From IMG/VR virus record IMGVR_UViG_3300000956_000001, positions 18,630 through 82,629 of that record: a stretch of DNA of 64,000 nt; one strand, written 5' to 3'. Made by a program: the position numbers and the translations under genes. Source of the DNA: a virus. Below the pieces are notes generated by a model. That model had not been told where the DNA came from, made no database searches, and saw nothing but the letters and a program-made list of their open reading frames with translations. This document shows, piece after piece, positions 16,382 through 44,284 of this stretch; position 1 is the first letter of the stretch, and each line of letters starts with the position of its first letter.

Positions 16382-16427
16382 GCGATCACCTCCCTTTTCA
16401 CTGACACTCGGTACTGACACTCTAGGG

Positions 16428-16458
16428 GGTGCCACGGAGCCTGCCGATCCGTGGCACC
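16428..16458. terminator. Hairpin between the small acidic gene and the HEXXH/vWA gene
   Basis: Perfect 11-base inverted repeat (GGTGCCACGGA at 16428-16438, complement at 16448-16458) with a 9-base loop. On the minus strand a possible -10 box (TAGAGT) follows four bases later with a weak -35 (TCGGCA) 17 bases before it. The hairpin may therefore terminate upstream transcripts where a new one begins. Confidence 0.5.
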
Positions 16459-26899: not shown

Positions 26900-28049
26900 T
26901 GACGGACTGTTACGCTTCACAGGCTTCCACTCAGGCTAGCCATAGAGGCCGTGCCGACTCGTACGGCGACCGGTTCCCCTTGCTGCTTGTGGTGCTCCCT
27001 TGGTTGTAACCCGACTTGGATGCGTACCTCGGGATTGCGCCTCCACCAGTCCGTCAGGACTTGTCTTGCCACATAGCCAATACCCCGCAGTGGGCATTGA
27101 TGGGCTGACCAATCAGAGTCAGAGGTTTGATCAACACACTGACTAAACGTGACTGGTCCGCAGGTGTGTCTACTTGCTAGCTCGCCAGGGTGACGCCAGT
27201 CAAGGCGCCGCTTTGCGCAGGTAGCCGCCAACTGGTCAGCCCGAGGGTTGCATCACGCTGGTGTAATGCGCTGACACTTCAACCTAAACAGGCCCTACCC
27301 GTCTGCAATAGTCGGTGCACGCCTGCCGTTTGTCGCTGGCCCGTTCGGGGTCCAGCCCAGGTGGTCTGCCCATTTCCCAGTTTTTTCGTTGGCCCTGACT
27401 AAGGCCGGTTCATCCTTCCTGTTCTCGGACGTTTCCGTCTCCGAATACAGGGGTCCAACCAGACGCCTTGATCAGGGCCGTACGCGTGATGCAACCTTCG
27501 CGCTAACCAGGTGCTCGTCTACCGGCTAACCGTTCCGTTGTGCGATGCGTGATGGTGCCTGTAGCCCGCTAGGATCGACGCTGACGACCGTTTGTGGCGG
27601 TTGCTAGGGTGGGTAACCCCCGTGCGGTGTAACGCGCTACGGGCGATCCTAGCGGGCTTTGTGCAGTGTTACTGTGCGGACTCGACCAGTCACGTTTGGT
27701 AACCTCACGTGACAGAGGTAAGCGCGGCAGGATTCCGGCCTGTCGTTCTCAGGACTGCTGGACTCCGGGGGTCGCAATGACCCATACTCCGGTTTTCCCA
27801 GGCGGAACCCTGCCGCTGGTTGGACCCATCGTGAGTCAGTCACGTAGCGTTGCGTCGAGTGCGTGCGGGACCTAACCGATGATAGCGCGGGAGCTATGTC
27901 GATCAGTACGGACGCACTGGGAGGCGCGGCTTGATGGCTGGCGTTGATGTGTCCGCTGACGGGACATCGGCTGGGAAAGGTGGGTAACCCTGACCGATGT
28001 ACCGCCAGCGCACACATCACACTGTGTTGTTAGGCAGCGTGATGGTGCC
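26900..28049. other. About 1.15 kb with no convincing gene
   Basis: Neither strand has an open frame with gene-like packing, start site or codon pattern. The best is a minus-strand frame at 26917-27231 (104 codons) without a clear ribosome site. The stretch instead holds repeats: GGTGGGTAACCC at about 27610 and 27979, and GCGTGATGGTGCC at 27547 and 28038, each of the latter directly before a long hairpin. A GGTTGCATCACGC element occurs in opposite orientations near 27245 and 27488. It may encode structured RNAs or be the remains of a tRNA cluster. Confidence 0.5.
27563..27658. repeat. Long-loop inverted repeat
   Basis: Perfect 15-base arms (AGCCCGCTAGGATCG at 27563-27577, complement at 27644-27658) enclosing 66 bases that contain a smaller hairpin (GGGT..ACCC). 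The arms each contain the TAGGAT hexamer but no -35 fits, so a structured RNA is more likely than a promoter. Confidence 0.55.
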
Positions 28050-28105: not shown

Positions 28106-29221
28106 CTAGGCGACCTTGCGAGCGCCGCCCACGCCGCCATCCTGGGCGGGCACGATGCCTTCCAGGTTGAACTTGGGGCTGGACAGGGCGGCCGTGATGG
28201 CACCCGAGCTGGCGTTGCCGTCCGGGTACTCTTCCGTGCGAGTCTTCGCAATCTGGCCCGTCTTCAAGAAGGTGCCGACCGGCACGCTCGCGAAGACCTC
28301 CTGGATGTGCGACTTCACGCTGCGCTTCGGACCCGTGTAGGCGTCACGCGTACCCGTGCTGGTGGCGGTACCGGCTGCCTTCGGCGCACGAACCTTCGCG
28401 ACGTTGCCGCCACGACCGTGCGCGATCTTGGCCGCGTTCTTCACGACGACGTGGACCTCGGGCGCCTTCGGCTCGCGGGCCGCGTACGCCTCGTCCGTCT
28501 CGTCGGTCTTCTTGCCCTCGGTCGCCCAGGAGTTGTGGTCGACCTCGTACGCCTGCCACGCCTTGACCTCGGGGGCCAGCGACTTCGACAGCTCCTGGAC
28601 CTTCGCGGTCCAGTCGGGGCTCACGCCCTCGCCCGGGGTCAGCATGGAAACCGCCAGGTAGAACGCGGAGACCTTCTCGACGTGCGCCTGCGTCGGATCG
28701 ACCGGAGGCTTGACGACCTGCTCGCGCTGGGCGGTTGTGGTCTTGACCTCGGCACCGAGATCCATGTAGACCTTCGCCTTGGAGGCGTTCAGCTCCTTGG
28801 TGAGCGAGGTCTTCATCCCGGTTTCGAGGAAGTCGCGGGCCTTCTTCTTCAAGCCCGGGGTCGGCAGGGCCGCGTAGGCCAGCTTGACCGGTGCGACGTT
28901 CACCGTGGGGACGTCGCCGGTCGTCTGGTCGCGCGCCTCGACGGCCTCGTTGACCTTCGCCTCGAACTCGGCGAACAGCTTCGCGTGCTCCGCCTCGGTG
29001 GCAGCCTGCTCGGCGGCCAGCTCCTCGGGGGTCTTCGTCGGGCCGGTCGCGGTGTTGGCGTCCGGCGTCTCGGGGGCCTGCGGGGTTTCCAGGTTTTCGA
29101 CCGGAGTCGCAACCTGCTCGGGCTGCGACTCGGTGGCCATGCCCGGAAGGCTGGACATCTGCTCGGTGGGCTGCGTGACCTCTTCGGCCGAAGCCGTGGT
29201 CACGTCATCCTGGTCACGCAT
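28106..29221 (-). CDS. Abundant hypothetical protein with possible C-terminal winged helix, 371 aa
   Basis: An acidic, Thr/Pro/Glu-rich N-terminus (1-75), a helical middle, a Lys/Ala-rich basic stretch (about 270-300), and a C-terminal 75-residue unit (SVKSHIQEVFASVPVGTFLK, TEEYPDGNASSGAITAAL) that looks like a winged helix. Basic linker plus winged helix would suit DNA or nucleoid binding. Codons are strongly biased to G/C third bases (GAC, GTC, CTC, AAG), more so than neighbours. With three tandem promoters, GAGGAGTCATC before the ATG and its own terminator, high expression is likely. Confidence 0.7.
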   Translation of the reverse strand: MRDQDDVTTASAEEVTQPTEQMSSLPGMATESQPEQVATPVENLETPQAPETPDANTATGPTKTPEELAAEQAATEAEHAKLFAEFEAKVNEAVEARDQTTGDVPTVNVAPVKLAYAALPTPGLKKKARDFLETGMKTSLTKELNASKAKVYMDLGAEVKTTTAQREQVVKPPVDPTQAHVEKVSAFYLAVSMLTPGEGVSPDWTAKVQELSKSLAPEVKAWQAYEVDHNSWATEGKKTDETDEAYAAREPKAPEVHVVVKNAAKIAHGRGGNVAKVRAPKAAGTATSTGTRDAYTGPKRSVKSHIQEVFASVPVGTFLKTGQIAKTRTEEYPDGNASSGAITAALSSPKFNLEGIVPAQDGGVGGARKVA

Positions 29222-30193: not shown

Positions 30194-30416
30194 CGTGTCC
30201 TAGTGGATAGATTGCCCGTTGGCACATATGGCATCTGACCTGCTGTTATGCTAGACCAGGCGCCGGTAATGTCCGAATTGCCAGATTTTACCGTCTTGCC
30301 CGACTAAGAGGGCTTTGCGTAGTGAACGCCACCTTTGAGTGAGAGTGCCTCACTTGTGACGACATGCACGTAGATGCCCTGTGCAGGTGCAATTGCCTCT
30401 TTGCAGTGTATACAAG
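30194..30416. other. Intergenic spacer without gene
   Basis: About 220 bases with no gene. It has a small hairpin (AGTGAG..CTCACT near 30345) and scattered GTCCGAA and TTGCCC elements like those around the array that follows. Confidence 0.5.
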
Positions 30417-30809
30417 TCATTTGTCCGTTTTGTCCTTCTTGCGGGTCTTTCTGGGCTTAGTTGACTTTGCGTGCTGTAGCCGCTGCAATGTGTTCTTTTC
30501 GATCTCAATCATCATCAAAGCGGCATTTCGGACTTCCGGGGTAAAGGGTCCAGTGTACCCCATAGTGAACAGAACGGCTTTTGCAGCCATATCGTTCTGT
30601 TCGCGGCGAGAGAGAGACTTCTGCACCGGAGCCGAACTTTTGCGCTCAGACTTCCCATCCTTGGATGCCTCACCACGGATGATGACAACTCGGCTACAGG
30701 GGAGCGAATCGTCACCATCCGTGGTAAGGCGGACAACGATACCAATTGGGGCAGAGCTAGACTCGCGCACCAATTCGTAGTATCTCGCCTTATCAGGATC
30801 AAAGAGCAT
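30417..30809 (-). CDS. Hypothetical protein, 130 aa
   Basis: ATG at 30809 after AAAGGTGCGCGAT. A folded first half (YYELVRESSSAPIGIVVRLT), a Lys/Ser linker, a helical segment and a very basic tail (KSTKPRKTRKKDKTDK). Perhaps nucleic-acid binding. Just upstream, GTTTTACC and GGTAAAAC (30828-30859) form a small hairpin. Confidence 0.7.
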   Translation of the reverse strand: MLFDPDKARYYELVRESSSAPIGIVVRLTTDGDDSLPCSRVVIIRGEASKDGKSERKSSAPVQKSLSRREQNDMAAKAVLFTMGYTGPFTPEVRNAALMMIEIEKNTLQRLQHAKSTKPRKTRKKDKTDK

Positions 30810-30858
30810 ATCGCGCACCTTTCAGGTTTTACCAGTCATGTGGCACTAACAGGGTAAA

Positions 30859-31240
30859 ACATTACAGTTGCACCATATCAGGGCATATGACTCAAAAAGG
30901 ACATACTACCTGGTAACTACTTCCATGACCTCAGTCTGGCGAGCGATCTCAAATTCGGCAATGTTGCGCTTTCCAGGCGTACCGGGCGAAGCGGACATAC
31001 ACTGCGTAACGGCTTCAAGTGCATCCTCGTACGTATCCCAGGAACACTTCCGATTCCAGTACAATTCCCACCAGATGCCACTTCCGTCCCCATCCAGGTA
31101 ATTCACCCGGAAGCAGACATCAGGTTGATACTTGCGCAAAACGCGCAACTCGGGCTGTTCAGACATCTCGGACATAACCCACCTTCCCAGACTTTCGGGG
31201 TAGACGAGACATATGCCCCCATAAGGTACAACTGTGATGT
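30859..31240. repeat. Inverted-repeat unit a
   Basis: Arms 30859-30893 and 31206-31240 are inverted copies, 29 of 35 matching (core ACAGTTG and GGGCATATG). Encloses one gene. Confidence 0.75.
30906..31175 (-). CDS. Hypothetical protein, 89 aa (unit a)
   Basis: ATG at 31175 after GGGAAGGTGGGTT. Beta-rich with aromatic residues (FRVNYLDGDGSGIWWELYWN), then an acidic helix. Likely a small folded protein, not recognised. Confidence 0.7.
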   Translation of the reverse strand: MSEMSEQPELRVLRKYQPDVCFRVNYLDGDGSGIWWELYWNRKCSWDTYEDALEAVTQCMSASPGTPGKRNIAEFEIARQTEVMEVVTR

Positions 31241-31306
31241 TAATCTGGAATCGTCATAGATGCACCTGATGCGCGCATTCCGGAGGTTACAGACTAAACG
31301 GACATA

Positions 31307-31396
31307 CTACTTAGATGCGTAGTAACCAGTCACGATGACTGCAAATACGACCCAAGCGACGATGAAGCCAAACCAGAACTTCTGGCCATTTGTCAT
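31307..31396 (-). CDS. Single-span membrane microprotein, 29 aa (unit b)
   Basis: ATG at 31396 inside the end of the gene upstream (ATGA-type overlap). Start MTNGQKF, helix WFGFIVAWVVFAVIVTGYY. Confidence 0.6.
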   Translation of the reverse strand: MTNGQKFWFGFIVAWVVFAVIVTGYYASK

Positions 31397-31470
31397 CTTG
31401 TCACCACAAACAACACGAAGGCCGCCCATAGTACCATCAGTACAAAGGCGGCAAAAAGAAGCTTAATCAC
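31393..31470 (-). CDS. Single-span membrane microprotein, 25 aa (unit b)
   Basis: GTG at 31470 directly after the TGA of the 180-residue gene. Helix LLFAAFVLMVLWAAFVLFVV, basic ends. Confidence 0.6.
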   Translation of the reverse strand: MIKLLFAAFVLMVLWAAFVLFVVTR

Positions 31471-32013
31471 TCATTCCTCCTCAAAACGGACAACCTTCGC
31501 GCCGCCGTCATCTGTCTCCATTACCGTAGGAAGCAACAGATGGCCACGAACCGTAATGCTCTGGTCATCCTTGCCCTTGTTGCGCAACTGCCACTTTTTG
31601 TTAGCAACGCGACAAGAAGGGCACCTGCACCCATACATGGAGTAAGACAGGTAATTGCCGTGACTCGTCCAACTCGGTTCGAAACGGATAAACCAGTCCC
31701 AGCACCAGGTTTCGATGCATTTCGGGCAGATACTCTGGTAATCCGCATCGGCGTCATGAGCACACGTAGTGCACACATCTGTCGAGACGATGACATTACG
31801 CCCGTAAGGCGCGATAATGCGCCTTCTGGGCGCATTCACCGAAGGGGGACGAACGTCCTCATTCAGTGCAATGTGCACGATCTGCCCAACTTGGACATTA
31901 CGCCAGTCAATCTGGCGATTCACTCCGCCGATGACAAACTGGTCGTACTCGCCCTTCACGTCAGATTTCGGGGCAATCGTCTGGTATTGAACAGATGACG
32001 ATCCTTTTCCCAT
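31471..32013 (-). CDS. Hypothetical zinc-binding protein, 180 aa (unit b)
   Basis: ATG at 32013 after AAAGGTGTAAA. Three Cys pairs: CTTCAHD, CPKCIE and, after SYSMYG, CRCPSCRVANKKW. The last resembles the GC-x-C-xx-C-xx-A motif seen in many small phage proteins. Likely binds zinc and nucleic acid. Confidence 0.7.
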   Translation of the reverse strand: MGKGSSSVQYQTIAPKSDVKGEYDQFVIGGVNRQIDWRNVQVGQIVHIALNEDVRPPSVNAPRRRIIAPYGRNVIVSTDVCTTCAHDADADYQSICPKCIETWCWDWFIRFEPSWTSHGNYLSYSMYGCRCPSCRVANKKWQLRNKGKDDQSITVRGHLLLPTVMETDDGGAKVVRFEEE

Positions 32014-32124
32014 TTTACACCTTTACCCTTTATCAGGCATCAGGTGCATTTATGACGATTCCAGATTATTAGTGCCAACTACACTGAACCCACTATTAGG
32101 GGCAGAACGGACATCGCAGACATG

Positions 32125-32643
32125 TCAGTCTTTCGTGTCGTACCAGACATGACCGTGCTCATCTACGTGAGCTGGCTCATCCAGGACATGCTGTGCATCA
32201 GCGTTGCATTGCGTCTCATATGGTGACATTGCACCACACAGTGACGTTTGGGGCGCTTCGACACATTTGGACACGGGAGTCATGCGGTAGCTTACGTGCA
32301 TCAATACGAGGATTTCGCACGCATTGCGCAACTGCCGCAGAAGGGGCAACTGTTCCGAAACGTAAAACCGTCGCAGAGTGTCATCATCGTCCTCATTCAT
32401 GCGATACGACACATAGTCGACACCGCTCTCATTTGTGACGATTCGGACATACCCGACGATGTGCTCCATCTGGTTTTGGTCCGACTCGTGCCAGATGCAC
32501 GTATCAGACCAAACGCCCGCCCATGGGCCCTCTTGTACGGTTACGATCGGCTTTGCCCAGATTGCACCGTAACGCGTCATTTGACGGACTGCGGTATCTT
32601 TGTCGTCAATGACCCTGTTGTGCGAGTTGTGCGAGTTGTCCAT
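32125..32643 (-). CDS. Hypothetical protein, 172 aa (unit c)
   Basis: ATG at 32643 after AAAAAGGTGGAGAG. Mixed strands and helices (GAIWAKPIVTVQEGPWAGVW, HIVGYVRIVTNESGVDYVSY), acidic. Cys occur singly. Not recognised. Confidence 0.7.
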   Translation of the reverse strand: MDNSHNSHNRVIDDKDTAVRQMTRYGAIWAKPIVTVQEGPWAGVWSDTCIWHESDQNQMEHIVGYVRIVTNESGVDYVSYRMNEDDDDTLRRFYVSEQLPLLRQLRNACEILVLMHVSYRMTPVSKCVEAPQTSLCGAMSPYETQCNADAQHVLDEPAHVDEHGHVWYDTKD

Positions 32644-32705
32644 CTCTCCACCTTTTTCAGGTTTTAGCACTGGATGCCCTACTAAGGGACGAGACGCGCG
32701 GTTGC

Positions 32706-32966
32706 CTACGGTTGTACCTTTCGTCCGCCCTGTGGCGATTTGTCGTCGTCTGCTACCTTGTGTCCGTATTGGATCACAAAGTCGTAGATGTCCGATTTAA
32801 TCAGCGTGCGGCTAAGCAGTAGGTGCGCCAGAATTGCACCTCTTCCGGGCCTTTTGTCCTGATCAGGGTATTCTGGGGTGATTGCGTTACAAATCTGCGC
32901 AACCGTCATGAAGTGCCCGTATTCGTGACCTTTGAACGCATTGAGAATGTGGTCCCGGATTGTCAT
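32706..32966 (-). CDS. Hypothetical protein, possible winged helix, 86 aa (unit d)
   Basis: HILNAFKGHEYGHFMTVAQI, then a helix and LLLSRTLIKSDIYDFVIQYG, resembles a small winged helix. ATG at 32966 overlaps the stop of the next gene by one base. Confidence 0.65.
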   Translation of the reverse strand: MTIRDHILNAFKGHEYGHFMTVAQICNAITPEYPDQDKRPGRGAILAHLLLSRTLIKSDIYDFVIQYGHKVADDDKSPQGGRKVQP

Positions 32967-33334
32967 CAGATGTGCGGTCCGTCCAGATGGTCGAAGATGT
33001 CCGATTTGAGGTAAACCGCCATCATCAGGACCGATTGGAGTAGTCCACCCACGTTCTGGCCGTGATCGTCCATTGATCCCTGTTCGGCACCACTGTCCAC
33101 GATGAGGCTAATTGCCTGCTCTGCGGCCTTTTCGTAGTTAAGGTGCATGTCTCCGGTTTGGACCAATTCGCCCAGTTCGTTCGGATCAAGAAGATTGTCC
33201 GGAAGAGGCTGATTGTCCAGATCGCGCCGAAGGACCAACAACGCACCATATGCGGTGAAAATGGCCTTTTCGATGTCATCGCGGAGAAGCTCACGTTCTG
33301 ATGCGGTAAGACGCGAGTTGCGTGTGTTTCCCAT
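32966..33334 (-). CDS. Hypothetical helical protein, 122 aa (unit d)
   Basis: ATG at 33334 after CCAAGGTGGGCAAA. Long helices (ERELLRDDIEKAIFTAYGAL), then acidic loops and a C-terminal helix. No family recognised. Confidence 0.7.
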   Translation of the reverse strand: MGNTRNSRLTASERELLRDDIEKAIFTAYGALLVLRRDLDNQPLPDNLLDPNELGELVQTGDMHLNYEKAAEQAISLIVDSGAEQGSMDDHGQNVGGLLQSVLMMAVYLKSDIFDHLDGPHI

Positions 33335-33544
33335 TTTGCCCACCTTGGCGACTAAGTGTGAAATGCGCACCTCGTCCCATAGTAGGGCATCCAGTACCAT
33401 TCTTGACAGAATATGACGTTACCTTACATATTTTGACATATGCCAGTTATGTCCGATTCTGCCCCTAATGGTGGGTTCAGTGTGATTCATACGGCTTGTT
33501 AGTAACATCCCAAATCGTCTGCTATGCACCTGATGTCTGATTTG

Positions 33545-33742
33545 CTAAACAGTGACCGGTTTGCCCGTTTTCAGGTCAATCATCTCGGTTTGTCGTGTTA
33601 GAGGTGCAACTGTCCGCTTCGGGGGATTCTTCCCATTTACCCGCTGCGTGAATGTCTGACCGCATGTGTCACACATTCTGCGGATATGGGTACCTGTGCC
33701 CGGTAGGTGAGTCACCTCCCTATTGCAGTGCATGCGTACCAT
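33545..33742 (-). CDS. Small zinc-ribbon protein, 65 aa (unit e)
   Basis: ATG at 33742 after TAGGCGAGA. HCNREVTHLPG then MCDTCGQTFTQR forms a C2HC-type ribbon; the C-terminus is basic then Asp/Lys. Could bind DNA or RNA. Confidence 0.65.
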   Translation of the reverse strand: MVRMHCNREVTHLPGTGTHIRRMCDTCGQTFTQRVNGKNPPKRTVAPLTRQTEMIDLKTGKPVTV

Positions 33743-33788
33743 TCTCGCCTACCCGTGCTAGTTGGTGCCGTTTGTCCAGTTTGTGACG

Positions 33789-33983
33789 TTACTTGGTGAT
33801 ACCTTTCGGTATCCACCGAGGTGTGGTGCAAACGTAGCATTCGCCACACTTGTACCACGTGTCCGAGTATCCGCAATCCTGGTCGAAATCCCACCATCCA
33901 GGCACTTCGCCCAGTTTGATGGACTTGTCCGTTTTGCGGTTCCTGACAACGTTTCTGATAGCATTGCGCAGATTGATACCCAT
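33789..33983 (-). CDS. Hypothetical protein, 64 aa (unit e)
   Basis: ATG at 33983, ten bases after AAGGTGG. Basic helical start (INLRNAIRNVVRNRKTDKS), then Trp/Asp and YKCGECYVCTTPRW with a CxxC-xx-C site. Confidence 0.65.
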   Translation of the reverse strand: MGINLRNAIRNVVRNRKTDKSIKLGEVPGWWDFDQDCGYSDTWYKCGECYVCTTPRWIPKGITK

Positions 33984-34121
33984 TGTACTGATTCCACCTT
34001 TTGTCCGTGTTGCCCGTTTTAAGGGGTTTGTGAACACCAGGTGCATAGCAGACGATTTGGGATGTTGCAGACTGAATCACCATTTACGTGCCAGTTGTCG
34101 CACATTATGCTGGTTTGTCCG

Positions 34122-34211
34122 TTAGTTCACAATCTGGATAACTAAGGACGTTATCCAGAGAATGACTAGAACTACCCAGATTGCTAGGGCTATCCCGGTG
34201 TGTGGCTTCAT
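34122..34211 (-). CDS. Single-span membrane microprotein, 29 aa (unit f)
   Basis: ATG at 34211. Start MKPHTG, helix IALAIWVVLVILWITSLVIQ. It sits 19 bases after the stop of the gene before it. Confidence 0.6.
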   Translation of the reverse strand: MKPHTGIALAIWVVLVILWITSLVIQIVN

Positions 34212-34230
34212 GTCCGTTTTGGTCCTTATG

Positions 34231-34395
34231 TTACCGAGTGTACAGTTTGCGACCCTTGCGCACCAGGTACACATACATACCGTTAGCCCGCTGAAAACGC
34301 AAATGCGTGACTTTGGGTCCGATGAGGTATCCACCCCAGTTGGTCCATTGGCACGTCATGCACTCATTGTCTGCGATGTCCGAAATGCTAGACAT
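34231..34395 (-). CDS. Hypothetical protein, 54 aa (unit f)
   Basis: ATG at 34395. Acidic start with two Cys (CMTC), then a beta-rich basic part (THLRFQRANGMYVYLVRKGR). Codon pattern and spacing fit a real gene. Confidence 0.6.
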   Translation of the reverse strand: MSSISDIADNECMTCQWTNWGGYLIGPKVTHLRFQRANGMYVYLVRKGRKLYTR

Positions 34396-34401
34396 GTGCG
34401 A

Positions 34402-34842
34402 TCAGAGCGCCTTGCACACGTTCTGGGCGAACCATTCCCATGCGTCCCGTTGCCAGGCGACAGGTCCGAAGTGGTACGTCCAGTGCGGAAGGTACGGTTC
34501 GGCCATCTCTGCCACGATTCCGGTAAAGCTGTGCGCGTATGCACCGATACCGATCAGATCGCCCGGCATGTCGATAATGCCCTTGGATGCCCGATATGAG
34601 GGGTTGTATTCCGAGACGACCCAAAAGACCAGTGCGGTATTGATTGCCCGCATTGCACCTCTTGGGTCGGTTGCGTGGAAGAGCTGGAATGCCCGTCCCA
34701 TGCGACCTTCGCACAGTGCGTGATACATTGCGGCATTTTCCCGCATTGTCGCACCTGAGTGCATTTCCAGGATTACGCCTTTTGGCTGGTTCGTCCCGTT
34801 GGCACCGTTCGCGAAGGTTTCCTTGATTGTCACAGTTGCCAT
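34402..34842 (-). CDS. Hypothetical protein, 146 aa (unit f)
   Basis: ATG at 34842 after AAAAGGTGGGAATC. Mostly helical with many Ala, Met and Trp (AAMYHALCEGRMGRAFQLFH); the C-terminal half has WTYHFGPVAWQRDAWEWFAQ. Not recognised. Confidence 0.7.
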   Translation of the reverse strand: MATVTIKETFANGANGTNQPKGVILEMHSGATMRENAAMYHALCEGRMGRAFQLFHATDPRGAMRAINTALVFWVVSEYNPSYRASKGIIDMPGDLIGIGAYAHSFTGIVAEMAEPYLPHWTYHFGPVAWQRDAWEWFAQNVCKAL

Positions 34843-34971
34843 GATTCCCACCTTTTGTGTGTCTTGCCCGTTTTAAGGACAACTGGCACATAAAAGGTGA
34901 TTCAGTCTGCTATGGTTCAAACGCCCTACTAGGTGCCTGATGAGCTGAATGTGCTGGATGTCTGGGTTGTG

Positions 34972-35358
34972 CTAGTCCATCCAGAGTGCGAAGTTTCCGT
35001 CGATAACGCCATAAACAGCCTGGTGTGTACGGTTCTGTCCGTATTTTTCCAGTTTGTCGTATTCGAGCGTTACGACCCAGTCTGAGTCGTCACAGTGCCT
35101 TAGGCACCCATAACCGCACTTATCATCGTGAATGTGCCGTCCGTTACCATCTGTGACGTTTAGCACCCTTACGGACGTGATGTCGTAAAGGGGCCAGTTG
35201 TCACGAAAGTACTGAACGGGCCACATGTCCGAATACTCCGGATCGCACCGAAGTTCCAGACTGTACACATTGCGCTGAATGAGGTCTTTGCGGTAATGTT
35301 CCAGAATGTCCCCGAAAGGTGCATCTGGCCGCTCCGCCACCGTCCGCGTAGCCTGCAT
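34972..35358 (-). CDS. Hypothetical protein, 128 aa (unit g)
   Basis: Begins MQATRTVAERPDAPFGDILE; middle beta-rich; CGYGCLRHC could bind metal; C-terminal strand YGVIDGNFALWMD. It follows the 138-residue gene by 13 bases. Confidence 0.65.
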   Translation of the reverse strand: MQATRTVAERPDAPFGDILEHYRKDLIQRNVYSLELRCDPEYSDMWPVQYFRDNWPLYDITSVRVLNVTDGNGRHIHDDKCGYGCLRHCDDSDWVVTLEYDKLEKYGQNRTHQAVYGVIDGNFALWMD

Positions 35359-35371
35359 CGGTTTGTCCGTT

Positions 35372-35788
35372 TCAGCCCGTGATGGTGTTGATGTCTTTGT
35401 TGCCCATCACGCGCACACTGCGTGCAAGGTCCGAAAGGAGCTGCTTGACCGTTGCGACCGGAAAGCCCTCATTGAACGGACTGTCCATCAATTTCCGATT
35501 GTCCGAGATGAACCATTCGTCCAACATGACCCCGTAATCCCAGAATGTCCGGTTATACACCGGGCCGCTCGAAGTGTGACCGTATGTCCGGCCGTAAGGG
35601 AACATGTAGAGAGTGTCCCTTTCGTCCGTAATGTACGTGAAGTCGCCGATCGTCACAAAAGCCCGATCGATGACAGTTTGCGAGTCACATCCCATTCCAG
35701 CCAGATTGGCCGCAATGTAGACTTCGTCCGCATAGTCACGCTTCATGGTGCTAAGTGCGCTATGCGTCGGGATGGTCGACTTGTCCAT
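35372..35788 (-). CDS. Hypothetical protein, 138 aa (unit g)
   Basis: ATG at 35788 after AAAGGTGGGCAAA. Alpha/beta (VIDRAFVTIGDFTYITDERD), acidic/aromatic, C-terminal helix VKQLLSDLARSVRVMG. Unknown. Confidence 0.7.
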   Translation of the reverse strand: MDKSTIPTHSALSTMKRDYADEVYIAANLAGMGCDSQTVIDRAFVTIGDFTYITDERDTLYMFPYGRTYGHTSSGPVYNRTFWDYGVMLDEWFISDNRKLMDSPFNEGFPVATVKQLLSDLARSVRVMGNKDINTITG

Positions 35789-35873
35789 TTTGCCCACCTT
35801 TGATGATGTCTGATCTAGTTTGCCCGATCAGGCACCTAGTAGGGCGTTTGAACCATATAAGCCGTATGGGTAG

Positions 35874-36397
35874 TTTCGCGCTGAATGACCTATTAGTGGT
35901 CGAATGTCTGTATTACCTGTATTGCGTGTAATGCCAGTTTTTACCGTGATGTCCGACTAAGATGCTAGTCGACCCCGTTTTCCGATCCGTCGTAAACGCG
36001 CGAGATGTCCTGCATGTCCTCAATGGACTCGATGACCTGCATGCGTGCCATGTCGCGCTTGTTGGTTTTGATCCATTCCACGCAGTACTTCACGGTTTCG
36101 CCGTTGTCGACCCAGATTTCGTAAATGTCCGTTGCGAGTTGGTCTGGGTAGGCGATGGCGATTGCAGCCAAGAACGCCGCATGTGTCACCTTGTAGGCGT
36201 TTCCACCCGCAATGTCACCATCCGGGCTGAATGCCACAGATGAGTGGACCTGTCGCATAAGTTCCGCGAAGTCGGTCTTGCGCGTTTCGCCACCAATGAC
36301 CGGAATGTCCAGTTCTCGCATGATGCCCACCTTGTGTGTGATGTCCGAATTGCCAGTTTTAAGGCATTCGACCACTAATGGGCCATTCAGAGCGAAA
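35874..36397. repeat. Inverted-repeat unit h
   Basis: Arms 35874-35906 and 36365-36397, 30 of 33 matching, enclosing one gene. It begins 16 bases after unit g. Confidence 0.8.
35965..36321 (-). CDS. Hypothetical protein, 118 aa (unit h)
   Basis: ATG at 36321 after CAAGGTGGGCATC. Helical with a Gly/Asp loop; AAFLAAIAIAYPDQLATDIY, then EIWVDNGETVKYCVEWI. Not recognised. Confidence 0.7.
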   Translation of the reverse strand: MRELDIPVIGGETRKTDFAELMRQVHSSVAFSPDGDIAGGNAYKVTHAAFLAAIAIAYPDQLATDIYEIWVDNGETVKYCVEWIKTNKRDMARMQVIESIEDMQDISRVYDGSENGVD

Positions 36398-36400
36398 TGC

Positions 36401-36510
36401 CCCCTAACATTCCAGAATCACCCGCTTCGGCCCGTGTAGAGCCGTAATGTCTGTCCGGTCCCGAAATGAGGGGACCTAAGCACATTTGGGTGATTCTGGA
36501 TGCCTTGGGG
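36401..36510. repeat. Inverted-repeat unit i, without gene
   Basis: Arms 36401-36423 and 36488-36510, 18 of 23 matching with 12 perfect bases at the inner ends. Only 64 bases lie between, with no reading frame. It starts 3 bases after unit h and ends 4 bases before unit j, so it keeps the tiling although empty. Confidence 0.65.
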
Positions 36511-36514
36511 GTAG

Positions 36515-37163
36515 TATGCGCTGAATGCCCTATTAGATGACGGTTGGGGTGGGTGAGTCCGTTTTGCCTGTTAGATGCCGTATCCGTTGTCTGTCGCGAT
36601 TGTGTCGATCAGTTCGACAAAGGTACAAAGCCCTTTTTGGTAGTTCTGGTACATCTTGCGGATTGCGTCACCGTTCGGACCGTCTTCGCCCGTTTTGCGC
36701 AACCAGAACCCAATTGCCATACGAACAGACCATTCGTACCAATAGTGCGAACTGTGCACATGGTCCGTGATGTCCGTCTGTTCCCACAATTCGTACATCT
36801 GGTCCCACTCGTTACCTTCGTCCCAGATTTCCTCGGATGAGACGTAAAGGGCCAATGCGCCCGTTTCGCACCAGATGTTGTACTGCTCCCGATCCATGAC
36901 GTTCTGGATGATTTTGCCCTCATCGCCCATATGCCAGACGGTTCGGGTGCCTTTGTCCAGAACGTAACGGAATGTCCCCAAGGGACCGTCTTGTCCGATT
37001 TGGCCCAGAATGACCAATTCCTTGACGAATGAGACGGGAGGAGTCATAAGACCCGTGTTGCCCATTTTGCCCACCTTTTCCCTACTAAGTGCGGTTTTGT
37101 CTAGATAAGTCCGTTTTGTACTCATCTACCCTAACCGTCACCTAATGAGGCATTCAGTGCATA
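36515..37163. repeat. Inverted-repeat unit j
   Basis: Arms 36515-36550 and 37128-37163, 31 of 36 matching. Encloses one gene. Confidence 0.8.
36571..37065 (-). CDS. Hypothetical protein, 164 aa (unit j)
   Basis: ATG at 37065 after AAAGGTGGGCAAA. Beta-rich first half (SFVKELVILGQIGQDGPLGT), then a Trp/Glu-rich helical half (WDEGNEWDQMYELWEQTDIT). Not recognised. Confidence 0.7.
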   Translation of the reverse strand: MGNTGLMTPPVSFVKELVILGQIGQDGPLGTFRYVLDKGTRTVWHMGDEGKIIQNVMDREQYNIWCETGALALYVSSEEIWDEGNEWDQMYELWEQTDITDHVHSSHYWYEWSVRMAIGFWLRKTGEDGPNGDAIRKMYQNYQKGLCTFVELIDTIATDNGYGI

Positions 37164-37176
37164 CCTACCGGTTCGT

Positions 37177-37710
37177 CATGATGTGCCCTATTAGGGCCTG
37201 GATGTCTGTTTTCGTGTCAGTTGTACTTTTCGTCCGTGACGTCGCAAATCAGCGGGTTCTCACCGTTCGTCCCGATTGCCCATACCTGAGCACGATACGG
37301 GTCAGTATTGGTGATTACGCGCCCGAATGTCGCATCTGACTTGTATTCGCCATACACGTGGATTTCGGTGACTTCGACCGTTTCGCACGTCTTGACCAGT
37401 TCTTCCAGTTTGTCCAAATTGACCGCTACGTACCCACATGCCCAGCATGACTGACACACCCGGATAAGTCCCATTGTGCCGGAAATGACTGGAATGCCCG
37501 CGAAGTCCGTTTTGAACTCTTCGAGGCAAAGGCCGCATTCGTCGTGGTAAGTCCGAATTCCGTCTTCCGCGTTGAAATCGACGGAAGTGACCGTAATGAC
37601 TGTCATGATAGCTGTGCCCACCTTTAGGTTGTTTTGCACTGGAATGTCGCTGATGTCCGTTTCGGTCTTTCACAAGATGGACATTCCAGGCCCTAATGGG
37701 GCACACCATG
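37177..37710. repeat. Inverted-repeat unit k
   Basis: Arms 37177-37206 and 37680-37710, about 28 of 31 matching with one one-base gap. Encloses one gene. Rightmost unit found. Confidence 0.75.
37217..37606 (-). CDS. Hypothetical zinc-binding protein, 129 aa (unit k)
   Basis: ATG at 37606, behind AAAGGTGGGCACAGCTATC. CGLCLEEF and CQSCWACGY give two CxxC sites in the first 70 residues; the rest is beta-rich. Possible treble-clef protein; unknown. Confidence 0.7.
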   Translation of the reverse strand: MTVITVTSVDFNAEDGIRTYHDECGLCLEEFKTDFAGIPVISGTMGLIRVCQSCWACGYVAVNLDKLEELVKTCETVEVTEIHVYGEYKSDATFGRVITNTDPYRAQVWAIGTNGENPLICDVTDEKYN

Positions 37711-38712
37711 CCGAACCATCGGCAATCTATCCACTATGGACAAGTCAAACAACAATGTGACACAAGCCCCTAAAGGCGCCTAAACCGCATAATTGCAACT
37801 GATACACCCTTATATGGGGCAATTTCAGTCTAAAACGGACATTTCCCAGTTTTACCGTCTTTGCCCACTTTAGTACCGTCTACCCACCTTTGTCGCGTTT
37901 GCCCGTCTTTGGTGCCGTCTTGTCGTACTTGTCGGCTACGCGGCATCTGGGGGCCTTTGCCCGGGATGTCCGTTTCAGTGCGGTTTAGTTGTCAATCAAC
38001 CCGTGTCGCCAAGCGTGGCGCCTAGCGGCCGTGCTGTCGTGCGGGTGGTGCCCCACTAGCCTAGCACCCCCCTAGGCGCAGAGCTCGGACAAATCGGACT
38101 TATCACGATAAGAACGCCCGCCTGAAATGTCCGTTCTGGCCCACCTTGCCCCGGTATGACATCGGCCGAAAGTACGATATAGGTCTGACCGTTCGGGGGA
38201 TGGACGAACTAATGCGGCATCTCGGCTACGCCCGCCCATATCGGCCCAGAATCGGACATAAAGACGGCCGGATAAGTCACGATAAATCGTCTTAAAACGG
38301 ACAGGGACATATCACCTCAAACCGTCTCAAAACGGGCACGGACATACCGCCTGATAGCACCTCAAAACGGACGTGATGGCCCTAACCCCGGTTGACCTGC
38401 GAAAACGCCGTAGGATCGCCGTAGGGGCGCTAGAATTGGCCGATGCATACCCGTGCCCCCAACGGGCGTGTAGGCGCGTCAGCGGCGGCGCTAGGGGCCT
38501 TAAATGGCCGATTCCGCTAGCCCCCACGGGTGGGCGGGTAGGTGGGCAAACGGGGGTGTAGTAGGCCAGATGGGGCAGTGTCGTGATATATCATCTTAAA
38601 TCGGACATCTGACGATATAGCGCTGAATGGTACGAGATTGGGGGAAAGAGGGGAATGTCCGATTTATCATCTTATGTTGTAAGGGGGCGTAAGATAGGGG
38701 GCTATGCGCGCA
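37711..38712. other. Noncoding stretch with scattered start-region remnants
   Basis: No frame on either strand looks like a gene. Elements of the array's leaders recur without genes: AAAGGTGGG-like sites at about 37881 and 38140 (minus), and AAAACGGACA and relatives in both orientations (about 37834, 38293, 38367). It may be decayed cassettes or a regulatory region. Confidence 0.5.
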
Positions 38713-38918
38713 AGTCCACTGTGGACAGATGGGATTCATGATCTTCTATATTCAAGATCATGAGAGCGTGACGATCTTGAATATAGAAGATCGTAAGAGT
38801 GTGACGATCTTCTATATTCAAGATCGTCTATCATCACTGATCTTAGATATTCAAGATCATGAGAGTGTGACGATCTTGAATATAGAAGATCATGAATGAG
38901 ATCTGTCCACTGTGGACT
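38713..38918. repeat. Five 33-base-phased iterons inside a large palindrome
   Basis: Five 20-base units of form GATCTT-N8-AAGATC start at 38740, 38773, 38806, 38839 and 38872, exactly 33 bases apart, with related 13-base spacers (mostly RTRAGAGYGTGAC). Units 1 and 3 read CTATATTC in the centre, 2 and 5 its complement, and 4 AGATATTC. A 13-base palindrome GTCCACTGTGGAC flanks the set at 38714-38726 and 38905-38917 with mirrored neighbours. This suits cooperative binding of a dimeric protein at an origin, a partition site or an operator. Confidence 0.8.
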
Positions 38919-40119
38919 CACGCATAGACGATCATGGATGGCTCAGCTACGGGCAAGTCGGACATTGGGGACTTAGGTGGAGATTGTGGGGGATAGGGTG
39001 ATATTGAGGTGAAAAGTCCTAGGTTTCGGGAATCTGGGGCTATTTGTGTATAAGGGGTATCTGGGGGACAAGTCGGAAATTACATATCATATGGCATATA
39101 TCGCTCTTTGTCGTTGATCTGGTAAATGTCCTGGTTTGGGTGAAAATGGCGTTTTCGGTAGACTTGTCGCTTGTGTGCAGAATGCCCGCATAAAGGCGAC
39201 ATATACGGTATATACGTCATGGGCCTTATATCGGACTTGTGCCCTATGACTGATAATGACCTTTTATTACACTTTGTCCGTTTAGGGCCCGGCTAGACTC
39301 GGACAAGTCGGACATGTCGCATATAGGCGCTCATCTGGGGCAAATGCGACAGGGGCGGGCAAAGGGTGCCGATAACTTATATTATCGGCAGACGGATATA
39401 TCGTGACAAAGTAGGACAAATCGGACTTGTCCACCATGCCCGAGTTGGGGGGTATGAGAAAATTGTCGGGGGGGTGCGCGCGAGCGCCCTCTGTGCCCTG
39501 TCGCTACTTATGAAATTTTTACGAGGGCATGATCAACATAAATCTGGCTATACCATCTGTCACCTCCCGATACACACAAAATTTTTACGAGGGCATGATC
39601 AACTATACCTGTCAAATCTTTGTCCACCTGCCCAGAAGGCGAAACCAGCTCAGCCACCTAGGATTCGCACTGAAGTACGTAACGCCACGTAATGAGTAAC
39701 GGAGACGATAGGGGGTATCGGTGACGGTCCCATGATCGTTTGCCACGAAACCTAAATGGCCTGTGACCTGCATATATATAGGGTTTAGGGGTTTAGGGGG
39801 TTTTAATTTTAAAAATCTAATATACCTAGCTCTGACTTGGTTTTCGTCACTGTCCGTAGACGCTGGGTGGTGGGGGAGCATCTTGGGGTATAGACCCGTA
39901 TAAGATGGTTTGCCAATCTGGTTGGGTGTGGGGGCTTATAGGCGAAAAAAACCCCGGAACCCCTAAACCCCTATTTGATCTATGTTTTCGCAGGTCAAAA
40001 CCCCTCCCGAAACCTCCGCCGAAACCCCCCCCGAAACCCCCCTATGATCATCTAGACAGCGTCCCCGAAACCGATAACGTCCCCGAAACCCCTCGGCAAA
40101 CGGAAAAAACGGACAGAGC
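38919..40119. other. Noncoding, repeat-rich stretch
   Basis: No gene-like frame. It contains a perfect 8-base hairpin (GCCGATAA/TTATCGGC, 39368-39389), a 25-base direct repeat (39513-39537 and 39579-39603), TTTAGGG-like repeats (39781-39804) with their complement near 39957, and repeated GGACAAGTCGGAC-type motifs (for example 39301, 39416). AT-rich runs occur near 39070 and 39805. Confidence 0.55.
39513..39603. repeat. 25-base direct repeat, two copies
   Basis: AAATTTTTACGAGGGCATGA-type sequence at 39513-39537 recurs exactly at 39579-39603. The copies start 66 bases apart, twice the iteron period at 38.7 kb. Confidence 0.7.
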
Positions 40120-40280
40120 GATGGCCCGGTCCGTGAGATCTGCAGTGTCTCGCGCGGCCGGGCCATCGTCTGAAATATGTAGTTATCAGGGGTTGTGGGG
40201 ACGATCCCCGAAACCTACGAAACCTATCCTAGCACTACGGTTTCGGGGATTCGGGGGTTTTGGATTGCGTCCCCGAAACC
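40006..40280. repeat. Cluster of CCCCGAAACC elements
   Basis: Copies or near-copies at 40006, 40019, 40031, 40063, 40081, 40206 and 40271, and an inverted copy at 40239-40248. The copies at 40206 and 40239 can form a 10-base-pair stem over the end of the adjacent gene. Confidence 0.65.
40120..40167. terminator. Hairpin after the primase operon
   Basis: 10-base arms GATGGCCCGG (40120-40129) and complement (40158-40167), about 70 bases beyond the last stop of the minus-strand primase operon. Confidence 0.5.
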
Positions 40281-41011
40281 CCCGTGATCGTTGCGTTGAC
40301 GTACTCGGGTACGTCGGGTCGGTAGGTGAGGTGCAGGAACCTGTAGAGTTTCAGGGGGGTATCCAGCTGAATATAGGGGGTTGACTCTTGGGTTGGAAGT
40401 ACTGGACGGTTCGTCTGATGGGTATAGACCGTCCAGGCAAACAAGAGTGGTTCGATCGCTGCGTACTGAGGAACCGACAGCTTCAGCTGGCTGTAGCGTG
40501 CAGTACGGGAGCTAACTGTCGGCTTCAGGCCCATTCTGACCAGGCGAAGCTGGGATGTTTCGTTCTGTGCATCACGTCTCGCACGCCTGCAAAGAGGTCC
40601 CTTGCAGCCCTGCCTGTAGGTGAGTGACGTGCCATGCGTGCTGCTGTAGTCGGGATCTGCCAGCTCTGAGGCAATCAGATCCAGAACGATGACGTGTCGT
40701 TCTGGAATATAGAACCCCAGTTTCGGTACCCTGACACAGCGTTCGTGTTCTGTGAAACGGATGCTGAGTTCGTTCGGTGCGAGCTTAAGCGTCCTAGGAA
40801 GCCGCTCTGCTTTTCCAAGAGGTGGTTGGATCACGAGCATCTCTCTCAGTGGAATTGATGAAAGACTGACTTGAGTAGTGACTGGCTTGTGGTTGTGACG
40901 CGCGCCAACTGAGTTAAGGTCGAAGTGCGGATTCGCGAGACTCGTGAAGTCAGTCATCTCGTCCATCGTGCCATACTCGGCCCGGTAGCCCTGCATGCCC
41001 TTACTCATCAC
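40235..41011 (-). CDS. Hypothetical protein with Cys/His phage motif, 258 aa
   Basis: The central HGTSLTYRQGCKGPLCRRAR matches a motif common in small actinophage proteins (HGT-x-Y-x-x-GC-x-x-x-x-C), probably a zinc site in a DNA-binding or nuclease-like fold. The first 100 residues are mixed; the C-terminus is proline-rich and its codons lie in the CCCCGAAACC repeat. The start overlaps the helicase stop in ATGA. Confidence 0.7.
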   Translation of the reverse strand: MMSKGMQGYRAEYGTMDEMTDFTSLANPHFDLNSVGARHNHKPVTTQVSLSSIPLREMLVIQPPLGKAERLPRTLKLAPNELSIRFTEHERCVRVPKLGFYIPERHVIVLDLIASELADPDYSSTHGTSLTYRQGCKGPLCRRARRDAQNETSQLRLVRMGLKPTVSSRTARYSQLKLSVPQYAAIEPLLFAWTVYTHQTNRPVLPTQESTPYIQLDTPLKLYRFLHLTYRPDVPEYVNATITGVSGTQSKTPESPKP

Positions 41012-42984
41012 GCACTCACCGCCACTCCCGGAGCAAGTGTATAGGCAGACGTCGGGCGGCCTCCGTTGGGTCCGGGCGGCACCTTCATCTCGATCAACAT
41101 CCCCAAAACTACAAGATTCTCGAGATTTTTGCGGAACTTCCCAATAGAACTGTTTTTGCGCTTCATTACCTTGTAAAGCTCGTTTGCGGTTGGTCCTCGG
41201 CCAGGTCCTGTCATTCTCATCACATGACGCAGAATCAGATCATTCTCGTCCGACTCCTGAGACGCTGCGATCTCGGTCTCGACGATTCCGTAGGTCTCAA
41301 TCACGTGCGGGAACAGGCTGAGAACGCGAATCACGATGTCAGCAGTGATGACGTCGCTGCCTTCGTTAATTGCGAAGAGCAAGAACAGCTTCTTCATCAT
41401 CAGATCGAGACGCTGTGTGATCGCTACGTCATTACGCTCACGCTGAGGTACGTACACTTTGTGAAAGAAGGTGTCCCATGCGTTCTCCCCGAGGCGCTCC
41501 CAGGTGACAACTTCGTGTGCGCGCGTCTTCATGTTGATCCCGGTCAGGATACTAGCCGCCCTGTCGAGATCAATTCGAGTGCGGTTAATGCTGAACGGCT
41601 TCTTTGGAGTGCCTGAAACGAATGCCCAGCGGTTGGCAAAGCCGCTATTGTCGTCCCCCTGGGTAATGAGCGTCCGAATCGACTTGAACTGCGTCGTAGT
41701 GATTGCGCTACCGAAGGGGCGCTCCGCACCGATGTTGCCGTGCGTCATCGACGTACTGGACAGCCAGCGCGGCGAATCGTACAGATCCATCAGTGTGGTC
41801 TTGAGTGTTGACCCTTGACGGTTGTTCTTGCCGATCAGGGTCGCAAGTTCCTCAAAGTCGACCAGTGCACGAATGAATGGCCAGCTACCGATAACCTTAC
41901 CGGTGCCAGGGTCCACCATATCGTGCTGGAACTGCTTGATGAGTACCTCGCCCGACTGGATGCCGTTAAGATACTGAGCACCGAACGGCGGCTGGTCGTC
42001 CCGCCTGTAGGGGAGCGCCTCGTGAATCAGGTTCGTCAGGTGTCGCTTCGACTTGGACTTGCCGGTACCGGTGCCGCCGACGAGGCAGACAAAGAGGTTA
42101 CCGGCAACCTGAGGACTATCTTCGAGGGTTCGCATCCCCCCAACGGCCAGTCCGAGACCGAGAAGGCCGTTCCAGAAGTGAAATTCTTCCGGACTGTCAT
42201 CCACACTTGTGGCGTCGAGATAAGTTCGGAGGAACGTATCCTCTGGAACAATATCCCGCCAGGCGATTCCTGGGTGCTGTCGGTTGGCGTTGAGGTCATT
42301 TGTGAGCTTCAGCTCCTCCGCTTCAGACCCTTCGGCCGTGTAGATGACGTTCTCGTTGTTGCTCTGGTCAGATCCGGGCTCCGTGACGGTTGTTACTGCA
42401 ATTGGCAGCTGTGGCGTCTGAACTACGAACGGATCGCCAGCAATGCCCTTTTCGATCCTAAGACCGAAGAAGTCGCCAATCGCCTCACGAAGAGCCCTGA
42501 AGCTGGCAGGATCGGCCTTATAGCCAGGCACCGGGTAGCCGAACCGCCACGCAGCGATATCCCAGATGTCTCCACCGCCACACTTGGCACAGTTGAAGAC
42601 GTTCTTCTCGGTGTTGAGCCAGCAGCTTGGGTCGTGGTCGGGGTGTGCAGGGTTCGGACACCGAACCTTGATGCTGTCTTTGCGGCCGCCGGGATTACAG
42701 TGGCCCTTGTCGGCCCACTGGTTGTAAGCGTCCACGATGCTGATCATCGCGATAAAGTCGTCCAGAACGCGCTGCTCTGGACTGATCTGCGAAACCTTGT
42801 CTTCTTCTTCGCTCATATCGGGAATGAACTCCCGATACTGAGCCATGAACATGTCGCCCTGCTGAGCTTCATATTCTTCATAGCCACGCTTCAAGCGCAG
42901 CTTGTACGCAAACGTCGTCTCGCCATCGAGCTGCTGCTGCTCAGCTTCCCATTCGGCGCGGGACTTGTGGTCCAACCATCCCAC
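41008..42984 (-). CDS. Primase zinc finger / helicase protein (DUF3987-like), 658 aa
   Basis: Residues about 105-145 contain RCPNPAHPDHDPSCW and FNCAKCGGGDIWDIA, a CHC2-type primase zinc finger. At about 308 the ATPase motif GGTGTGKSKSKRHL appears, followed by LVDFEELATLIGKNN (Walker B-like), as in DUF3987 replication helicases. It lacks a primase catalytic core of its own; the adjacent AEP gene supplies one. Together they form a split primase-helicase. Confidence 0.8.
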   Translation of the reverse strand: MGWLDHKSRAEWEAEQQQLDGETTFAYKLRLKRGYEEYEAQQGDMFMAQYREFIPDMSEEEDKVSQISPEQRVLDDFIAMISIVDAYNQWADKGHCNPGGRKDSIKVRCPNPAHPDHDPSCWLNTEKNVFNCAKCGGGDIWDIAAWRFGYPVPGYKADPASFRALREAIGDFFGLRIEKGIAGDPFVVQTPQLPIAVTTVTEPGSDQSNNENVIYTAEGSEAEELKLTNDLNANRQHPGIAWRDIVPEDTFLRTYLDATSVDDSPEEFHFWNGLLGLGLAVGGMRTLEDSPQVAGNLFVCLVGGTGTGKSKSKRHLTNLIHEALPYRRDDQPPFGAQYLNGIQSGEVLIKQFQHDMVDPGTGKVIGSWPFIRALVDFEELATLIGKNNRQGSTLKTTLMDLYDSPRWLSSTSMTHGNIGAERPFGSAITTTQFKSIRTLITQGDDNSGFANRWAFVSGTPKKPFSINRTRIDLDRAASILTGINMKTRAHEVVTWERLGENAWDTFFHKVYVPQRERNDVAITQRLDLMMKKLFLLFAINEGSDVITADIVIRVLSLFPHVIETYGIVETEIAASQESDENDLILRHVMRMTGPGRGPTANELYKVMKRKNSSIGKFRKNLENLVVLGMLIEMKVPPGPNGGRPTSAYTLAPGVAVSA

Positions 42985-43399: not shown

Positions 43400-44284
43400 T
43401 CACTTCCAGTAATTCGTAGTAGTAAGCGCGTCGAGAGCGTCGCGCGGCGTCAGAGCCTGTGAACCATAGTTGGTACGAAAGTCGAGGAAGAACGTCGGAT
43501 CCAGGGGATTCTTGAGGTTCCGACCCAGAGGGAGCCGACAAAGGTTCCCGAAGCCCTTCTTCTCCAAGGCAACCTGCTTGGGGAAGACTTCGACCGTCAT
43601 GCACTGGTAGCTGAGTTCCTCGTCGATGGTTCCGTTGTGAGCGTTGACGATCTTGTGCTTAAAGAAGTTATTGCCCCTACTCGGGGCAAAACAGCCGAGA
43701 TTGTCCAGAATCATCTGTGCGCCATCGCGAACATCTTTGGCTGGCATGAGGCCAGTGAAGCCGTACACATGCACACCCTTGTTGCCGGTGTACGTGGCAG
43801 CAACTGGGATCTCAAGCTCGCGAGATACTGCGCTGGCGAGCTTCTCGGCAAGCATGCGCATCTGCGTCTTGAGGTACTGCCGCTGAAGTCCCAGACTCCG
43901 ATTGAGCCAGTCTTCGCGCGGGTTGGTCGGGAAGAAGTTCTTGTACACGCCGTCCGAGTCACAGTCGACCGGCAGTACCAGCTGTTCGTACGTCTCTGGA
44001 TGCTGAGGGTCCGGCTTGTCCAGATCGATATCAAAGACGAACAGCTTGCACTGGTCATCCTTGTTGAGCAGATAGTGACCGTAAGTTGCATCACTGTTGA
44101 TATGCGCCAACAGATGCTTCATACCGAAACCACTGTCCGGAGTGATGACTGCCGTTCCGTCCGCAGTCCGATCCACGGCTGGCTGGTATGCGCCATCAGC
44201 TCGCTGCGTTGCGCGCACATCAGGTCGTGCGATGAAATTCTTAGCGAACAGCTTTGCGATTTCTTTCTGCTGATCGATGTCCAT
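43400..44284 (-). CDS. Archaeo-eukaryotic (AEP) primase catalytic subunit, 294 aa
   Basis: LFVFDIDLDKP (D85, D87) is the metal-binding DxD of AEP primases. YTGNKGVHVYGF is the sGxKGxH motif, and NLCRLPLGRN near the end is a further conserved strand. It synthesises primers with the zinc-finger/helicase protein encoded downstream. Start ATG at 44284 with GGGAGATCC upstream; it heads the operon. Confidence 0.85.
   Translation of the reverse strand: MDIDQQKEIAKLFAKNFIARPDVRATQRADGAYQPAVDRTADGTAVITPDSGFGMKHLLAHINSDATYGHYLLNKDDQCKLFVFDIDLDKPDPQHPETYEQLVLPVDCDSDGVYKNFFPTNPREDWLNRSLGLQRQYLKTQMRMLAEKLASAVSRELEIPVAATYTGNKGVHVYGFTGLMPAKDVRDGAQMILDNLGCFAPSRGNNFFKHKIVNAHNGTIDEELSYQCMTVEVFPKQVALEKKGFGNLCRLPLGRNLKNPLDPTFFLDFRTNYGSQALTPRDALDALTTTNYWK

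Follow-up and report, generated by a model that had tools for sequence, protein, structure and literature searches.

At the locus described here, ten units of small unknown genes, all on the minus strand, are packed nearly without gaps, and every unit is bounded on either side by a private inverted repeat, not shared with the other units. The window, meaning the whole stretch of 64,000 nucleotides that was analyzed, is part of the record of an 82,629-base virus. The large terminase of this virus shares 50 to 54% identity with its counterparts in Gordonia and Rhodococcus phages of 75 to 83 kb and reaches up to 75% identity to short viral contigs; judged from sequence, the source is an uncultured phage akin to these Gordonia and Rhodococcus phages. 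A helicase profile search of bacterial and archaeal genomes gave no relative, no tRNAs were found, and no known RNA families were detected in the window. The array block is flanked by AAA-ATPase and vWF-type genes on one side and by helicase-primase genes on the other, and the equivalent block of the relatives holds varying small genes. The surrounding genes are as follows.

8543-9385, tyrosine recombinase gene (Phage_integrase match)
13439-16435, vWF-like gene, on one side of the array
16914-18542, AAA-ATPase gene (Pfam AAA_5), on the same side as the vWF-like gene
41008-42984, helicase gene, on the other side of the array
43400-44284, primase gene, on the other side of the array, with the helicase

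The array itself consists of ten gene-enclosing repeat pairs (U1 to U8, U10 and U11) and one gene-less hairpin (U9).

U1, 30858-31241, minus strand; arms 30858-30893/31206-31241, 83% identical; gene g1 (30906-31175)
U2, 31241-32068, minus strand; arms 31241-31272/32037-32068, 97% identical; genes g2a (31307-31429) and g2b (31471-32013)
U3, 32081-33483, minus strand; arms 32081-32107/33457-33483, 96% identical; gene g3 (32125-32643) and the whole of U4
U4, nested in U3, 32669-33395, minus strand; arms 32669-32699/33365-33395, 90% identical; genes g4a (32706-32966) and g4b (32966-33334)
U5, 33504-34066, minus strand; arms 33504-33536/34034-34066, 97% identical; genes g5a (33545-33742) and g5b (33789-33983)
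U6, 34067-34910, minus strand; arms 34067-34099/34878-34910, 94% identical; genes g6b (34231-34395) and g6c (34402-34842), possibly also a short ORF ending at 34122
U7, 34911-35857, minus strand; perfect 31-nt arms 34911-34941/35827-35857; genes g7a (34972-35358) and g7b (35372-35788)
U8, 35865-36406, minus strand; arms 35865-35909/36362-36406, 82% identical (inner 36 nt 89%); gene g8 (35965-36321)
U9, 36398-36513, minus strand; gene-less; arms about 36398-36423/36488-36513
U10, 36514-37164, minus strand; arms 36514-36558/37120-37164, 84% identical; gene g10 (36571 to about 37068)
U11, 37170-37717, minus strand; arms 37170-37202/37685-37717, 91% identical; gene g11 (37217-37606)
Possible outermost pair, 30193-30216/37721-37745, 92% identical with one gap; would enclose the whole array

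The arms are 25 to 45 nt long, with a within-unit identity of about 82 to 100%, and they never overlap start or stop codons, the gene starts in the array being calls made in this analysis. The original prediction had described units lying end to end, with borders touching at 31240/31241, 34066/34067 and 34910/34911; these borders are confirmed and a fourth is added at 36513/36514, but linkers of 5 to 20 nt separate the units elsewhere, and U4 lies inside U3. It had also counted two perfect arm pairs, of which only that of U7 (31/31) is found, with U2, U3 and U5 having one mismatch each. The one unit it listed without a gene, U9, is indeed gene-less, but it is a local, compact and highly structured RNA hairpin (z −8.1 for 166 nt folded, including the neighbors' arms). 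The possible outermost pair does not rise above shuffle level and is not significant alone.

We searched for inverted pairs with a match score of +1, a mismatch score of −2, 100 to 2000 nt between the arms and a score of at least 16. Between 30000 and 38500, exactly ten pairs reach this threshold (scores 18 to 31), and all ten enclose genes. None of 20 dinucleotide shuffles gave a pair scoring at least 16, and the score never exceeded 15 in 200 shuffles of 30800-37800, so that the comparison with a shuffled null that the original prediction had called for places the ten pairs above every shuffle. In the rest of the 64-kb window, only one further pair (27232-27258/27484-27510, score 18) and a palindrome cluster at 38.7 to 38.9 kb pass, and about 988 kb of other viral loci contain only seven pairs scoring at least 18 (gaps of 250 to 1500 nt). 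The shuffles and the other viral loci together rule out a chance origin of the repeats. An assembly artifact appears unlikely, since arm lengths and mismatches differ in every unit.

An all-versus-all comparison of the 20 arms shows that the best match of each arm is its mate in the same unit (score 21 to 31), and when left arms are assigned to right arms, the optimal solution reproduces the true pairs. Between units, the mean arm score is 6.9, compared with 5.7 for shuffled arms, bearing out the earlier statement that the arms differ between units. Kinship across units is clear only for the U2/U5 and U8/U10 arms (scores up to 16.5), and two arms sharing one spacer score 4 to 11.5, which is the random level. 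Gene conversion between neighboring repeats was rejected as their source, as it would make the halves of a spacer alike, yet these match at random level. Inversion switches were also rejected, with no unit being reversed.

A partial core motif, CTGAATGCCCYATTAGG, with the palindromic centre CCTANTAGG, occurs in some of the arms and nowhere else in the window (8 matches with at most 3 mismatches versus 0.18 expected); U1, U2, U5 and U6 lack it. Among viral contigs, the arm motif gave 44 single matches and in none of the contigs two, which we take as chance. An ATTAG core is found in U3, U8, U10 and U11, and these four units have CTATTAG in the left arm and CCATTAG in the right arm (TCATTAG in the right arm of U10). 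Four units altered at one position and with one polarity are more than random decay would lead one to expect, which suggests that the left and right arm ends have different roles.

The genes of the array are nearly all orphans, with no family match or close relative except for g4a and g7a. The former matches the C-terminal domain of a 371-aa protein encoded left of the array (28106-29221), both being assigned to phrog_6708, and, by this sequence match, probably represents a copied domain of a conserved phage gene. The latter is 45% identical to Trogglehumper gp118, which is not enclosed by repeats. Phage records and viral contigs, searched at both the DNA and the protein level, yielded no close relative of the array, and among the ten array proteins scanned there was no match to a transposase and no defense gene. 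The product of g2b matches a phage HNH endonuclease family weakly (E = 0.011); a similar short cysteine motif (YGCRCPSCRVAN; RQGCKGPLCRRA) was seen by eye in g2b and in the protein encoded at 40235-41011.

Further structures and motifs were observed nearby. Several segments of the largely non-coding region 27380-28159 fold strongly (minus strand, z between about −3 and −7), among them a long hairpin at 27945-28019 whose folding is stronger on the minus strand; GGTGGGTAACC is present in two of the segments, none of the region matches an Rfam family, and the predicted folds possibly represent phage non-coding RNAs. The g0 reading frame (30417-30818) includes a near-perfect hairpin of about 28 pairs (30667-30730), with 4 G-U and no A-C mismatches on the coding strand (z −7.4). 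The motif AACGGACA/TGTCCGTT is strongly clustered, with 14 copies in 30300-38700, both inside and outside coding sequence, versus 5 in the other 74 kb of the record. At 38702-38927, within 2.5 kb (37.7 to 40.2 kb) without clear minus-strand genes, a nested palindrome cluster is built from GATCTTCTATATTCAAGATC and GTCCACTGTGGAC; a related contig (L012, 14042-14123) also has repeated GTCCAC/GTGGAC palindromes beside its helicase gene, and the cluster could be an origin or a regulatory center.

With respect to the related phages, we examined 20 viral loci as well as stretches of DocB7, Perlina, Jumbo, GMA3, GordDuk1, Reynauld, Mbo2, Orchid, Camerico and Trogglehumper, and an array of private gene-enclosing repeats is absent from every one of them. 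In the equivalent block of Rhodococcus phages ReqiDocB7 and Perlina, small genes on the minus strand stand in rows, and the spacers between them, of about 100 nt, are repeated and contain local hairpins and TTGACA boxes in sense orientation, and half-spacers around one gene match at about 74 to 77% over 30 to 47 nt. These spacers resemble the array in coming from related phages, in their position, in the rows of small minus-strand genes and in their inverted symmetry, but they differ in forming local hairpins, in being alike within a genome, in carrying TTGACA boxes and in lacking near-identical private arms. In Gordonia phage Jumbo (L010, 23992-25068), two small genes lie within perfect or near-perfect inverted repeats, which are GC-rich hairpins with T runs; these are probably terminators and are not private but shared. 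Within the set of sequences compared, the arrangement is thus specific to this phage, while its position and gene style are common to its relatives.

Several known systems share part of this arrangement. In the cassette arrays of integrons, unrelated genes share an orientation, and each has a private, structure-bearing recombination site (attC) that folds locally at one end of the gene. The array is similar in its unrelated, same-orientation genes with private structured sites, but its inverted ends lie at both ends of a unit, and neither an attC core nor an integron integrase was identified. Insertion sequences and non-autonomous elements are gene-containing units with terminal inverted repeats that differ slightly from left to right. 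Terminal inverted repeats around a gene unit are found here as well, but instead of a shared end recognized by a transposase there are ten different repeats in one row, with ends that differ and only a partial core motif in common. A classical transposon is disfavored by the lack of a transposase match among the ten array proteins scanned, of shared ends and of target-site duplications at U3 or U4, where the sequence was read directly; at touching borders such duplications are impossible. In bacterial 16S and 23S rRNA, long-range stems bracket a segment of the transcript for processing by RNase III. The stems here would likewise enclose a transcript segment, but the units are protein coding, ten domains lie in one stretch, and the stems show no wobble bias.

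Among phages, the promoter-early stem-loop type of element (PeSL) of T4-type phages is described as a set of local promoter and hairpin motifs (Arbiol et al. 2010 and Comeau et al. 2014, via PMC4503421; also HGTV-1, PMC3950731) and as a proposed mediator of gene shuffling among small, fast-changing genes (PMC4503421). PeSLs and the array have in common stem-forming intergenic elements between such genes, but the PeSL motif is shared across spacers, whereas here the pairing spans the gene and is private to each unit. Instead of an early promoter in each spacer, as in the PeSLs, no sigma-70-type promoter is evident, and instead of a local stem-loop in each spacer, the spacer halves show no pairing with each other, with only U9 being a local hairpin. 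The ESAS/SAS elements of cluster K mycobacteriophages are 17-bp inverted repeats with both arms upstream of one gene, 4 to 13 bp apart, and follow a genome-wide consensus in which the repeat and a 13-bp SAS stand directly upstream of the start codon (PMC3203893). They too are inverted repeats tied to single genes in actinobacteriophages, but here each gene has an arm on either side, and the arms vary from unit to unit. The original prediction had named ESAS as the closest known case, a reasonable choice, but since ESAS is local and upstream only, the ReqiDocB7/Perlina hairpins and the T4 PeSLs come closer.

Our best reading, which we consider quite possible and hold tentatively, is that gene cassettes at the DNA level, with copied ends, form an array in the phage's hypervariable block of small genes. 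A cassette would comprise at least one small gene on the minus strand together with the UTRs, and its ends would be inverted copies of one private sequence of about 25 to 45 bp. Every cassette may have come or formed as a single DNA module with matching ends, with later modules being added at the ends of existing ones or, as for U4 in U3, inside a 5' UTR. Ancestral intergenic local palindromes like those of DocB7 and Perlina would be natural joining points: joining at or near the tip would open the palindrome and leave one half on either side of the gene. Such opening would explain the touching borders, the lack of a fixed terminal sequence and the lack of target duplications, just as copied ends would explain the private identity, the abutment, the nesting and the orphan content. 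The closing stems in the transcript would be a by-product that may or may not serve the phage. Support also comes from the fixed left/right difference in four units, as for ends with distinct roles, from the varying small genes of relatives at the same place, and from the local palindromes in the relatives' spacers. Against cassettes, the searches gave no close relative in which a unit is gained, lost or moved, the array proteins scanned include no transposase, and neither target duplications nor a terminal sequence common to the units are seen. A tyrosine recombinase is encoded about 21 kb from the array, but proteins of this kind are also annotated in relatives that have no such array. The partial core motif could equally be a regulatory site, which we count against cassettes, and simple insertion dating is not supported, as the arms of the nested U4 have more mismatches (3/31) than those of its host U3 (1/27), although these numbers are tiny. 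A more specific form, which we regard as unlikely, is a cassette system recognizing structure rather than sequence, in which units are opened and joined at palindrome tips and a captured gene receives matching ends that also close its mRNA domain; if true, this would be integron-like gene capture by a phage, with a recombination site that encloses the gene.

The main rival, possible but somewhat doubtful, is that the units become a succession of closed domains in the folded polycistronic minus-strand transcript, the stems of 25 to 45 bp being cut by RNase III or shielding both ends to give separate stable mRNAs. The predicted minimum-energy fold of the whole 6,981-nt sense RNA indeed contains all ten stems, the arm duplexes have predicted energies of −48 to −61 kcal/mol, and swapping one arm is predicted to destabilize each unit by 21 to 43 kcal/mol. 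The position of the arms clear of start and stop codons and the other strongly structured RNA in the neighborhood also favor it, as does the fact that neither intrinsic terminators nor sigma-70-type promoters are enriched (4 sigma-70-like sites on both strands versus 7.4 expected; a phage-specific promoter could still be present), by which local terminators or sigma-70 promoters were also rejected as the nature of the repeats. Low-energy folds across 300 to 1400 nt, however, disregard ribosomes, and the mismatch spectrum points the other way. The arms mismatch at 28 of 337 positions, namely, 10 G-U in the mRNA, 11 A-C and 7 transversions, showing no preference for G-U on the transcribed strand (P < 0.001 if 80% is expected), and a C-A mismatch halfway along the sense stem is common to four units. 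Local hairpins nearby, scored likewise, have 10 G-U versus 1 A-C (Fisher P = 0.02 for the difference from the arms), although these controls were partly chosen by low folding energy and so are not fully neutral; for the subset found by a strand-blind search, the counts are 6:0 (P = 0.03). With the recurrent core mismatch excluded, the one-sided P value is 0.08 on small numbers, and, again on small numbers, pairing in the arms is not seen to be kept by compensatory or G-U changes on the transcribed strand. The arms therefore look like inverted copies under neutral decay rather than pairs selected in RNA, as their mismatches are transition-rich and without strand preference, unlike those of the local hairpins. 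Of the two readings in the original prediction, cassettes and RNA stems, the former fits better because of the within-unit copies, most of them unshared between units, the exact abutment, the nesting and the neutral mismatch spectrum; the latter is retained, as all ten stems form in the fold, but lacks the G-U bias. The two could also hold at once.

Ordinary modular exchange, in which a unit is taken by homologous recombination from a phage with uniform palindromic spacers, so that its half-spacers match, seems to us distinctly improbable. It would be in line with the DocB7 and Perlina spacers, which repeat within the genome with local palindromes and loosely enclose genes by inverted copies, and with the related arms in U2/U5 and U8/U10, but half-spacer identity in those phages falls short of the about 82 to 100% seen here, breakpoints at spacer centers would be needed at both ends of ten units, and no donor was found in searches of phage records and viral contigs. 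A role for the arms as operators or promoters under a phage regulator, inverted on either side of each gene, is very improbable: the arm-only motif and its palindromic centre would suit such sites, but a common binding site cannot explain private flanks that match across a gene, and four units have no motif.

How phages gather and exchange the small unknown genes of their hypervariable regions is an open question in the field. The matched private ends described here mark unit borders to the base and make both the movement of units and RNA pairing directly testable. If the RNA reading is true, the phage would have an operon divided into closed domains of mRNA, and if structure-directed capture is true, it would be a new way for phages to collect genes.
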